From NCBI GenBank assembly GCA_031269465.1, contig JAISZB010000255.1, positions 1 through 64,000 of the forward strand: a stretch of DNA of 64,000 nt. Direction: 5' to 3'. The notes under the pieces were generated by a model. That model ran no database searches. It was not told the origin of the DNA and saw nothing but the letters and a program-made list of their open reading frames with translations. Origin of the DNA: Clostridiales bacterium (GTDB taxonomy: Bacteria > Bacillota > Clostridia > Lachnospirales > WQUN01). The position numbers were made by a program, and so were the translations under genes. This document shows positions 4,941-63,996 of this stretch, piece by piece (the stretch's first letter is position 1; the number at the start of each line of letters is the position of its first letter).

Positions 4941-5064
4941 TAGCTATGTTAAAAAATTATTCAAGTGTTCCTAAAGGCAAAGGAAAGCGACTGCGCTTAA
5001 TAAGCATTTCTAGAGCACATGCCCGTATTTTGAGGCGAGCATGCGCTGAATTCCTTTAGCGCGA

Positions 5065-5267
5065 ATCCATCAGGATGCGGGGCATCCGTCAGGATGCGGG
5101 GCATCCGTCAGGATGCGGGGCATCCGTCAGGATGCGGGGCATCCGTCAGGATGCGGGGCATCCGTCAGGATGCGGGGCATCCGTCAGGGCGCATTCTGCA
5201 TCCGTCAGGGCGCATTCTGCATCCGTCAGGATGCATTCTGCATCCGTCAGGATGCATTCTGCATCCA
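5065..5267. repeat. Minisatellite, six 19-bp then four 21-bp units
   Basis: Six 19-bp units (ATCCGTCAGGATGCGGGGC, the first with ATCCATC) run from 5065 to 5178. Four 21-bp units with the ending CATTCTGC follow to 5262, two starting ATCCGTCAGGGCG and two ATCCGTCAGGATG. Units share ATCCGTCAGG, and each 19-bp unit contains the small palindrome GGATGC-GGG-GCATCC. The array abuts the stop codon of the DHH-like gene. It lacks the spacer structure of a CRISPR. Confidence 0.9.
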
Positions 5268-6149
5268 TTAAAGCCATTCAGAGGAGCCCGATGCGTTAGG
5301 CCGCGCATTGGCATGCAAAGAAGATACGGCTTCAATGGCCCTGCGAAATTCTATTTCCATTTGCGGCTCAGGCAAACCCCAGCACCTCGGCGAACCTGCG
5401 ATGCCTCGATGCCCGCCAGCCAAATCGCCCCACAATTCTCTTGCCATATTTGCGGCGCTATGTTCTTTCCCTCCGTCAGCAAATGATATCGTGACGCTTC
5501 CGTACTTCTTGTTCCAGGAAACAACGGCTGGAATTATACGACGCTGTTTAGGCGAGTAATAGGAGGCGTTGCAGAATACATCAGATGTTATAAAAAAACG
5601 GGCGCATTCGTTTTCTCCCACCAAATTTGCTTCCACGCGATCTTCAGATGCTCGCGCCCATAGTTCTCCTCTTTGCAATAGACAGGGATCGCCTCCTATT
5701 ATTTTTCCGATTGCTTCGCCTTGTTCCATTATCTTCTCTGTTACATCGGACAATGAGACGTACTTTTCTCTCCCCAGTGAATCGCTGTAGGCCCAATACG
5801 CCTGAAGCTTCACGCGCAAGCCGGCTGGCAGCTCATTCGCGTGATGAGGCCCCTTAACATCTATAAAGCCCGCAGCTTTCCAAAAATCTTCATCTGCGGG
5901 CTTTACGCCGTACAATGCGAGACAGCCTCCGACAGTGTCCAGGTCTATATGCGAAATGAGAGTGTCTCCGCTGAACCCATGCTGATTAGGGAACTCACAA
6001 GGCGCAGGGCAGCTTTTATATTTGCCGCTATGATGCGCAAGCGTATACAGCCGGCCTTCTACAACACATCCGCCGTATTCCGCTTCAACCGTCGCGTCGG
6101 GCTTTGCTCCCGCAGCAGCTTCGTAACTTGGAGCTATCATAATTTTCAT
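5268..6149 (-). CDS. Divergent DHH/DHHA1-like phosphoesterase-like protein
   Basis: About 293 residues from the ATG at 6149, which has GGGGTGG 7 nt upstream; an open extension to 6236 lacks a ribosome site. Two motifs suggest the DHH/DHHA1 superfamily of nucleotide or oligonucleotide phosphoesterases: SHIDLDTVGG near residue 60, placed like the metal-binding DHH block, and GGHRGIAGSPR near the C-terminus, placed like the DHHA1 GGH motif. The true D-H-H triplet is not present, and the protein is shorter than NrnA or RecJ. It may be a degenerate or substrate-specialised relative. It has no close partner: a PAL element lies upstream, and the minisatellite begins at its stop codon. Confidence 0.5.
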   Translation of the reverse strand: MKIMIAPSYEAAAGAKPDATVEAEYGGCVVEGRLYTLAHHSGKYKSCPAPCEFPNQHGFSGDTLISHIDLDTVGGCLALYGVKPADEDFWKAAGFIDVKGPHHANELPAGLRVKLQAYWAYSDSLGREKYVSLSDVTEKIMEQGEAIGKIIGGDPCLLQRGELWARASEDRVEANLVGENECARFFITSDVFCNASYYSPKQRRIIPAVVSWNKKYGSVTISFADGGKEHSAANMARELWGDLAGGHRGIAGSPRCWGLPEPQMEIEFRRAIEAVSSLHANARPNASGSSEWL

Positions 6150-12203: not shown

Positions 12204-12425
12204 TATACTGCTTTTCATATAAACCCCTATGAAGCTTCGCTTCACCGCTAAGGATGAAAATATTAAGCCATTTGTGTGGCATGTGCAAATGTCCATAAAA
12301 TGCATTTCGTACTAAACTGCCTTTTTTTGGAGCTTGATTATACAGCAAGTGCAAAATGCCGATATCAATCGCACCACTCAATGGATAATCAACAAAAAAA
12401 GGGACATTTGATGAAAAGCGGTATA
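12204..12425. repeat. PAL element, long form, 222 bp
   Basis: It starts TATACTGCTTTTCATAT and ends GATGAAAAGCGGTATA. It carries the extra ~100-bp module (CCCCTATGAAGCTTCGCTTCACC, then AAGCCATTTGTG, then CAAATGTCCATAAAATGCAT) before the usual GGAGCTTGATTATACAGC arm and a TGCCGATATCAATCGC core. Confidence 0.9.
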
Positions 12426-25104: not shown

Positions 25105-25172
25105 GCAATCCGCCCCTTCAACCCGCCAATTAGCTTTCTCAGCAGGAACGCATTCAAAGATGGCACGCAACC

Positions 25173-25296
25173 TATACTGCTTTGCATATAAAACTGCCTT
25201 TTTTTATTGATTATACAGCGAGCGCAAATGCCGATTTCAATCGCACCGCTCAATGGATAACCAACAAAAAAGGAACATTTGATGAAAAGCGGTATA
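25173..25296. repeat. PAL element, 124 bp
   Basis: TATACTGCTTTGCATAT start, TTGATTATACAGCGAGC, GCCGATTTCAATCGC core, and GATGAAAAGCGGTATA end. It lies directly upstream of spoIIP. Confidence 0.9.
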
Positions 25297-25479: not shown

Positions 25480-25632
25480 TATACCGCTTTTCATCAAACG
25501 TTCCTCTTTAAGATAATTTAGTACGAAAATACATTTTATGAACATATGTCCATGCCTCAAATACGCAAATGACTTGATATTTTTACCCTTGGCGGTGAAG
25601 CGTAGCGTCATAGGGGTTTATATGAAAATATA
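25480..25632. repeat. PAL long-form module, inverted, 153 bp
   Basis: TATACCGCTTTTCATCAAACG, then the extra module in reverse (TTTATGAACATATGTCCATGCC, then GCGGTGAAGCGTAGCG), ending ATATGAAAATATA. It shares its right TATA with the next copy. Confidence 0.85.
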
Positions 25633-25764
25633 CCGCTTTTCATCAAATGTTACTTTTTTGGAGCTTGATTATCCATTGAGTGGTGCGAAATGCCGATCTC
25701 GGCATTTTGCACTCGCTGTATAATCAAGCTCCAAAAAAGGTAATTTTATATGAAAAGCAGTATA
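25629..25764. repeat. PAL element, complete, 136 bp
   Basis: A near-perfect full copy: TATACCGCTTTTCATC left, ATATGAAAAGCAGTATA right, both GGAGCTTGATTAT and ATAATCAAGCTCC arms, and the I-I core GAAATGCCGATCTCGGCATTTT. Confidence 0.95.
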
Positions 25765-28429: not shown

Positions 28430-28653
28430 TATACCGCTTTTCAACAAATGTTCCTTTTTGGGTTGATTATCCACTGAGTGGCGCGATTGATATCGGCATT
28501 TGCGCTCGCTGTATATACTGCTTTTCATATAAAATTACCTTTTTTGGAGCTTGATTATACAGGCTTCTATGGATAATCAAGCTCCAAAAAAGGAACATTT
28601 GATGAAGAGCGGTATAATCAATAAAAATAGGCAGTTCATTGAAAAGCAGTGTA
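28430..28653. repeat. PAL element interrupted by a second PAL
   Basis: The left half runs 28430-28515 (TATACCGCTTTTCAAC to GCTCGCTGTATA) and the right half continues after 28616 (ATCAATAAAAATAGGC to AAAAGCAGTGTA). Rejoined at TA, the halves match other copies, for example GCTGTATAATCAATAAA at 33902. The intruder occupies 28514-28616. Confidence 0.85.
28514..28616. repeat. PAL element nested in another PAL, 103 bp
   Basis: Complete ends TATACTGCTTTTCATAT and GATGAAGAGCGGTATA and both GGAGCTTGATTAT/ATAATCAAGCTCC arms; the centre is shortened to ACAGGCTTCTATGG. It is inserted at the TA of the host copy's GCTGTATAATC, leaving TA on both sides. Confidence 0.9.
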
Positions 28654-33820: not shown

Positions 33821-33947
33821 TATACCGCCTTTCATCAAATGTTCCTTTTTTTGTTGACTGTCCATTAGAATGGTGCGATTGATATCGGCATTTTCCACTC
33901 GCTGTATAATCAATAAAATAAGGCAGTTTTATATGAAAAGCAACATA
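33821..33947. repeat. PAL element, 127 bp, between T-box and pheS
   Basis: TATACCGCCTTTCATCAAATG start, the core GCGATTGATATCGGCATTTTC and ATATGAAAAGCAACATA end. It ends 36 bp before the pheS ATG. Confidence 0.88.
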
Positions 33948-37525: not shown

Positions 37526-37652
37526 TATGCCGGTTTTCATTCAATGTTCCTTTTTTTGTTGACTGTCAATTGACCGGTACGAAATGCCGATATCGGCATT
37601 TCGAGCTTATAATCAAGCTGCAAAAAGGGAACATTTGATGAAAATAGGTATA
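37526..37652. repeat. PAL element, 127 bp, downstream of pheT
   Basis: TATGCCGGTTTTCATTCAATG start, I-I core GAAATGCCGATATCGGCATT, and GATGAAAATAGGTATA end. A bare diverged copy with CCGATATCGGCG and GCTGTACAGTCAAGCT precedes it (37478-37525). Confidence 0.88.
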
Positions 37653-41928: not shown

Positions 41929-42041
41929 TATACTGCTTTTCATATAAAACTGCCTTTTTTTATTGATTATACAGCGAGTGCAAAATGCCGATATCAATGG
42001 ACAGTCAACAAAAAAAGAAACATTTGATGAAAAGCGGTATA
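41929..42041. repeat. PAL element, 113 bp, between convergent genes
   Basis: TATACTGCTTTTCATAT start, TTGATTATACAGCGAGTGC, TGCCGATATC core joined directly to AATGGACAGTC (the Q arm is shortened), and GATGAAAAGCGGTATA end. A bare core with CTTGAAAGCGCTG and CTTAAGAATATCA follows at 42078-42130. Confidence 0.88.
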
Positions 42042-56052: not shown

Positions 56053-56281
56053 TATACCGCTTTTCATCAAATGTTCCTTTTTTTGTTGACTGTCCATTGA
56101 GTGGTGCGAAATGCCGTTTCGGCATTTCGCACTAGCAGTATAATCAAGCTAAAAAAGGTAATTTAGTACGAAAATACACTATATGGACATTTGTCCATGC
56201 CTCAAACACACAAATGGCTTAATATTTTCATCCTTAATGGTGAAGCGAAGCTTCATAGGGGTTTATATGAAAAGCAGTATA
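56053..56281. repeat. PAL element, long form, 229 bp
   Basis: TATACCGCTTTTCATC start, core GAAATGCCGTTTCGGCATTTC, TAATCAAGCTAAAAAAGG, then the extra module in reverse (ATATGGACATTTGTCCATG, GGTGAAGCGAAGCTTC) and the end ATATGAAAAGCAGTATA. A right-half fragment follows (56282-56331, ending AAAAACAGTATA). Confidence 0.92.
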
Positions 56282-57084: not shown

Positions 57085-57214
57085 TATACCGATTTTCATG
57101 CAATGTTACCTTTATAGCTTGATTATCCATTGAGTGATGTGATTGATATCGGCATTTTGCACTCGCTGTATAATCAAGCTGTAAAAAGGGCAATTTAGTG
57201 CGAAAATCAGTATA
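57085..57214. repeat. PAL element, 130 bp
   Basis: TATACCGATTTTCATGC start, TTGATTATCCATTGAGTG, core GTGATTGATATCGGCATTTTG, GTATAATCAAGC, and GCGAAAATCAGTATA end. Confidence 0.9.
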
Positions 57215-62577: not shown

Positions 62578-62712
62578 TATACCGCTTTTCATCAAATGTT
62601 CCTTTTTTGGAGCTTGATTATCCATTGAGTGGTGAGAAATGCCGATCTCGGCATTTGCACTCGCTGTATAATCAAGCTCCAAAAAAGGTAATTTTAAATG
62701 AAATGCAGTATA
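62578..62712. repeat. PAL element, complete, 135 bp
   Basis: TATACCGCTTTTCATC start, GGAGCTTGATTATCCATTGAG, the I-I core GAAATGCCGATCTCGGCATT, GTATAATCAAGCTCC, and AATGAAATGCAGTATA end. Confidence 0.93.
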
Positions 62713-63860: not shown

Positions 63861-63996
63861 TATACTGCTTTTCATATGAAATTACCTTTTTTGGAGCTTG
63901 ATTATACAGCGAGTGCAAAATGCCGAGTTCGGCATTTCGCACCACTCAATGGATAATCAAGCTCCAAAAAAGGAATATTTTATGAAAAGCGGTATA
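63861..63996. repeat. PAL element, complete, 136 bp
   Basis: The clearest copy: TATACTGCTTTTCATATG left and TATGAAAAGCGGTATA right, CCTTTTTTGGAGCTTGATTA and TAATCAAGCTCCAAAAAAGG arms, and I-I core AAATGCCGAGTTCGGCATTT. Confidence 0.95.

Follow-up and report, generated by a model that had tools for sequence, protein, structure and literature searches.

Positions 28430-28653 of the window (the whole stretch analysed here, 64,000 nucleotides from the start of contig JAISZB010000255.1 of the Clostridiales bacterium assembly GCA_031269465.1) hold two nested copies of a short palindromic repeat, PAL. Direct reading of the sequence confirms the preliminary description of this site, in which one PAL copy is split exactly at a TA by a second copy at 28514-28616. 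The interrupted outer copy consists of a left part (28430-28513, plus strand), which aligns to intact copies, and a right part (28617-28653, plus strand) ending in TACACTGCTTTTCAA (reverse complement). The inserted copy lies on the minus strand, spans 103 bp including one TA on each side, has palindromic ends (TATACTGCTTTTCAT and TATACCGCTCTTCAT) and belongs to a homogeneous 103-bp subfamily. Comparison of the filled site, GCTGTA-TA-[TACTGC...GCGGTA]-TA-ATC, with the empty site, GCTGTA-TA-ATC, places the element proper at 28516-28614, between TA direct repeats at 28514-28515 (left target-site duplication) and 28615-28616 (right), one TA being kept in the empty site.

Without the element and one TA, the outer copy is 123 bp long. 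That this removal restores it, as had been claimed, is borne out by an ungapped junction in the alignment to window positions 25172-25271 (87% over 100 bp); of the ungapped empty-site matches for the interrupted PAL, the best lies in this copy, at 25173-25296 on the minus strand. The empty-site sequence GCTGTATAATCAATAAA does occur intact in the window, once, in the plus-strand copy at 33821-33947, although it starts at 33901 and the position given earlier, 33902, was one base off.

Full-length PAL copies also lie at 25629-25764 (136 bp, plus strand) and 62578-62712 (plus strand; the query for genome searches), both with TIRs of the youngest class (GCTTTT), and at 63861-63996 (136 bp, minus strand). 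Further copies are found at 57085-57214 (130 bp, plus strand, GATTTT TIR class), 37526-37652 (127 bp, plus strand, TIRs diverged) and 41929-42041 (113 bp, minus strand). Long variants occur at 12204-12425 (222 bp, minus strand, with an extra tail of ~95 bp) and 56053-56281 (229 bp, plus strand); the ~95-bp tail, ATGGACATTTGTCCATG...GAAGCGAAGCTTC, is conserved between them and sits beside one end. A separate array at 5046-5281 is built of 19- and 21-bp units in tandem (GCATCCGTCAGGATGCGGG).

PAL is an imperfect palindrome from end to end, and its consensus folds into a single hairpin. It has no gene or coding capacity, carries a TIR of ~15 bp, TATACYG(C/A)TTT(T/G)CAT, and comes in main lengths of 103 and ~136 bp, with a further variant of 222-237 bp that bears the extra tail. 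Copies of exactly 103 bp number 9 in the first 816 kb and 17 in 1.4 Mb. The source assembly is fragmented (7.70 Mb in 391 contigs, ~92% complete). The commonest exact form of the TIR, TATACYGMTTTTCAT, has 1,257 matches genome-wide as compared to 1 for a reversed control pattern; of 37 further family genomes, which include the other species of the genus, only two have a match (one each), and that species has none. A profile search of 1,404,700 sampled bases returned 592 PAL copies, or 4.7% of the sample, and no match on the reversed sequence. This 1.4-Mb sample is slightly PAL-rich; scaled by the exact TIRs, the extrapolated genome total is ~2,850 copies, ~4.1% of the genome. PAL copies largely avoid genes: 4 of 188 lie inside ORFs of at least 150 codons, as compared to 55% of random positions. 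The nearest relatives of the host by PheS are uncultured Clostridia MAGs at 67% identity, and a literature search found no report of the PAL family. An AAGG-type motif and an outward-reading ATG are present at either end of PAL, and we considered whether PAL might be an outward start-codon device. It was rejected as a general supplier of starts: at 253 PAL ends with an outward ATG, frames of at least 60 codons numbered 8 in the ATG frame and 16 and 24 in the other two. PAL is absent from the genus's second large genome (G001), which carries a different, unrelated palindrome of ~100 bp whose ends read AGAGCATATCCCAAAATT (L246:4265-4363; L250:1772-1890; L250:3922-4027).

The TA rule was examined across the family. 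For 183 clean-ended PAL copies, seven definitions of the boundary were used to join the flanks, and ungapped matches spanning the join were sought elsewhere in the 1.4-Mb sample. With one TA kept, a spanning paralogous empty site was recovered at 19 of the 183 copies, and the nested pattern is therefore not a matter of chance. The six other definitions gave 0, 1, 1, 1, 2 and 7 sites, 0-2 for most of them; the 7 belong to a 'T only' definition and include six sites of the single-TA set. Empty sites with a single TA, which the preliminary description had proposed to look for, are thus present. In non-PAL DNA, empty sites have TA in 7 of 7 cases; within PAL targets TA is seen in 4 of 12, and the rest now read TG, TC, GA, AA or TT. 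None of the non-TA sites in PAL targets has a longer duplication, and they are accounted for by diverged paralogues that do not represent the true pre-insertion allele. All of the empty sites are paralogous, the nearest relative being too diverged in DNA for orthologous ones. The target preference extends symmetrically past the TA, with A at outward position 3 at a frequency of 0.53 (0.28 at intergenic TA) and, at outward position 1, C at 0.31 (0.17) and G at 0.06 (0.12). This palindromic preference recalls the Tc1 site.

A search for an IS630-type transposase with matching ends, also proposed at the outset, found one, only as decayed or contig-broken copies. The full copy of this partner IS (L034, 1167-2614) is 1,448 bp long with TATACTGCTTTTCA at both ends, starting TATACTGCTTTTCAGACATAAATG and finishing ATTACCAATGAAAAGCAGTATA. 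The ends TATACTGCTTTTCAG... and ...TGAAAAGCAGTATA are kept in many copies, and well-preserved ends read TATAC...GTATA beside unique flanks. For the one full IS copy, no empty site was found. A DNA search with the partner IS gave 47 matching pieces at ~40 loci genome-wide, and its relics number more than 30. The DDE_3 profile (PF13358) matched at 12 genomic places, mostly broken and mostly from one element family, and scored above its cut-off in several relics of the partner IS. The IS630 transposase profile NF033545 matched the best partner-IS fragment at E 1e-25; with partial fragments, this falls below the cut-off set for the whole protein. The transposase is of the DDE_3/transpos_IS630 kind that defines the IS630 family, with 35 residues from the last D to the E. 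Features in common with the IS630/Tc1-mariner superfamily are the DDE transposase of the partner IS (NF033545, DDE_3) and the TA target, duplicated at PAL insertions; the partner IS differs in that it is seen only as broken copies and has ~220 bp of non-coding DNA on either side of the gene.

No intact transposase of the partner family is present in the assembly, where every copy is broken or ended by a contig, and none was found in a contig scan of genomes; among 37 genomes of the family there was one weak match, in G007, at 47% along part of the query. An intact gene is a requirement for autonomy but not for belonging to the IS630 family. IS position 1261 is where two contigs, C292 and C330, begin (96-98% identity); C233 begins at IS position 902, and C127 ends within the IS. 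Breaks like these are what a short-read assembly leaves where copies are nearly identical. The lack of an intact copy therefore does not count as evidence that the element is extinct, and an active copy may be absent from the assembly. Relics in L031, L034 and L039 have in common a 1-base deletion near IS position 808 that six other copies do not show; this may reflect movement in trans of a copy with a frameshift, or a gene that employs frameshifting. Two further copies (L097:1067-1085 and L096:1279) have nearly the same internal deletion, from IS position ~930 to ~1353, which takes out the C-terminal part of the transposase.

The youngest PAL class and the partner IS share 14-15 terminal bases at both ends. 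Beyond the TIR their interiors are unrelated, and PAL is therefore not a simple internal deletion of the partner IS. TIR classes were counted in 261 near-full PAL copies. Copies with both ends alike numbered 70, 60 and 66 for the three main classes, GCTTTT, GATTTT and GATTTG, and 11 for GCTTTG; the two ends agreed in 207 of 237 classifiable copies, as compared to a mean of 72 and a maximum of 102 after shuffling. The median copy is 95% identical to its class consensus for GCTTTT, 87% for GATTTT and 77% for GATTTG, so the classes differ in age and GCTTTT is the youngest. It is also the only PAL class that shares its TIR with the partner IS. No partner IS for GATTTT or GATTTG emerged among long TIR pairs, de novo repeats or other IS630 matches, and old partner-IS copies already carry GCTTTT.

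Among the variable paired columns, coupling is strongest at the two TIR positions that define the classes (normalised mutual information 0.57 and 0.51); a few positions in the PAL arms are also coupled (0.20-0.49), and most fall below 0.15. Left arms pair with their own right arm at 0.797 and with that of the nearest relative at 0.807. Since pairing within a copy is no better than pairing with a relative, the coupling was passed down within lineages rather than created in each copy, and arm-to-arm conversion inside copies was rejected. Most simply read, lineages had to have two matching ends to be successful. These TIR sequences might also record a PAL lineage that switched its TIRs stepwise, from GATTTG to GATTTT to GCTTTT, with the interior kept and both ends changing together, and so followed successive transposases to thousands of copies; we regard this as a tentative proposal, somewhat more doubtful than probable. 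Each TIR change may have tracked a new transposase, although no older-class partner was found and old IS copies already have GCTTTT. If true, PAL would be a fossil record of MITE/transposase turnover within one bacterial genome.

Taken together, PAL has the features of a MITE: it is short and non-coding with TIRs (103-bp and ~136-bp classes, hairpin consensus), it shows a target duplication with clean, paralogous empty sites, and its ends are common to an autonomous-type element, the IS630 element with terminal TATACTGCTTTTCA. We consider it very probable, as a joint statement, that 28514-28616 marks one transposition event into an older PAL copy and that PAL is a TA-inserting MITE moved by the IS630-family transposase of a resident IS with the same ends, the movement being deduced from sequence. 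The resident IS (1,448 bp) would supply the transposase, which would recognise both PAL ends and excise the element; the excised PAL would then go in at a TA, with the TA duplicated. Earlier PAL classes may have used transposases of slightly different end specificity that are now past recognition. The preliminary description had PAL as probably mobilised by an IS630/Tc1-mariner-type transposase, and the empty sites and the IS with matching ends support this. Counter-points are that the family has no intact transposase in the assembly, that the older classes GATTTT and GATTTG are without a partner IS, that the matching TIRs are ~14-15 bp long between elements of unrelated interior, and that the empty site in some diverged paralogous targets now differs from TA.

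One alternative is that PAL is a TA-targeting MITE with another, unrecognised transposase as its mover, for example a TA-inserting IS5-group member or a second IS630 lineage, the IS630 ends being alike by convergence. TIR identity with the IS is indeed confined to the youngest PAL class, the two older ones being partnerless, and the genome has two more IS630-type frames (L032/L254 and L262), albeit without PAL-like ends. We nonetheless find a different mover improbable: the 14 terminal bases are identical at both ends in many IS copies and in the youngest PAL, within one genome and with TA-flanked ends, and an unbiased repeat search of 1.4 Mb ranked the partner IS family as the second-largest long repeat, behind an IscB-like family without TIRs. 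Far less credible still is that PAL spread otherwise as a palindromic repeat, in a REP/RAYT-like manner or by inter-copy conversion, with TA as a by-product of AT-rich ends. Its full-length palindromes do resemble REP/BIME-type elements, and the arms covary at several positions; yet filled and empty sites form precise pairs with a single TA, in non-PAL sequence as well, the boundaries fall at the TIR, the IS has the same ends, and the arm pairing gives no sign of copy-by-copy conversion. REP/RAYT elements make no target duplication, and assignment of PAL to them was rejected on account of its duplicated TA.

PAL, read as a MITE moved by an IS630-family transposase, is a further example of a known MITE/IS630 pairing, and its scale is what stands out. 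The Correia elements of Neisseria have TATA termini, as does PAL. They are also alike in TA duplication, hairpin and mostly intergenic location; the Correia TIR differs from that of PAL, and promoter and RNase III roles are known for Correia elements. More than 120 Correia copies are reported in N. gonorrhoeae (PMC10969869). A closer parallel is RUP of Streptococcus pneumoniae (Oggioni and Claverys 1999, reviewed in PMC2229807), a gene-less element of 107 bp in 108 copies, with TIRs like those of the resident IS630-Spn1, TA insertion and inferred mobilisation in trans. PAL shares with the RUP/IS630-Spn1 pair its short, gene-less form, IS630-like TIRs, TA insertion and inferred movement in trans. 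It differs in copy number (~2,850, extrapolated, as compared to 108), in being a near-complete palindrome, in having three TIR classes that differ in age and in an IS without an intact assembled copy. The highest copy number that a recent review gives for MITEs of prokaryotes (PMC10969869) is that of ERIC, 711 in Photorhabdus; PAL resembles ERIC in being high-copy, palindromic and intergenic, the sequences being unrelated, and appears several-fold larger than that figure. The same review knows no prokaryotic counterpart of the 8-10% share of the genome that MITEs reach in plants (PMC10969869).

A single nested site has thus become a tested MITE and IS pairing, and the three TIR age classes offer a route to asking how bacterial MITEs outlive their transposases. 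Palindromes here are remnants of transposons, and a regulatory reading of them needs further evidence.

Other repeats were seen in the same genome. The largest long repeat family of the 1.4-Mb sample comprises 26 regions with a decayed IscB-like gene, in which an RRXRR domain (PF14239, E 3e-28) is accompanied by an HNH-like motif; examples are L212:9830-11442, L230:12155-13754 and L208:1866-3398, with a fragment at L083:5926-6538. A long open frame of SDSSTESDS-type serine-aspartate repeats lies at L081:10300-11748.
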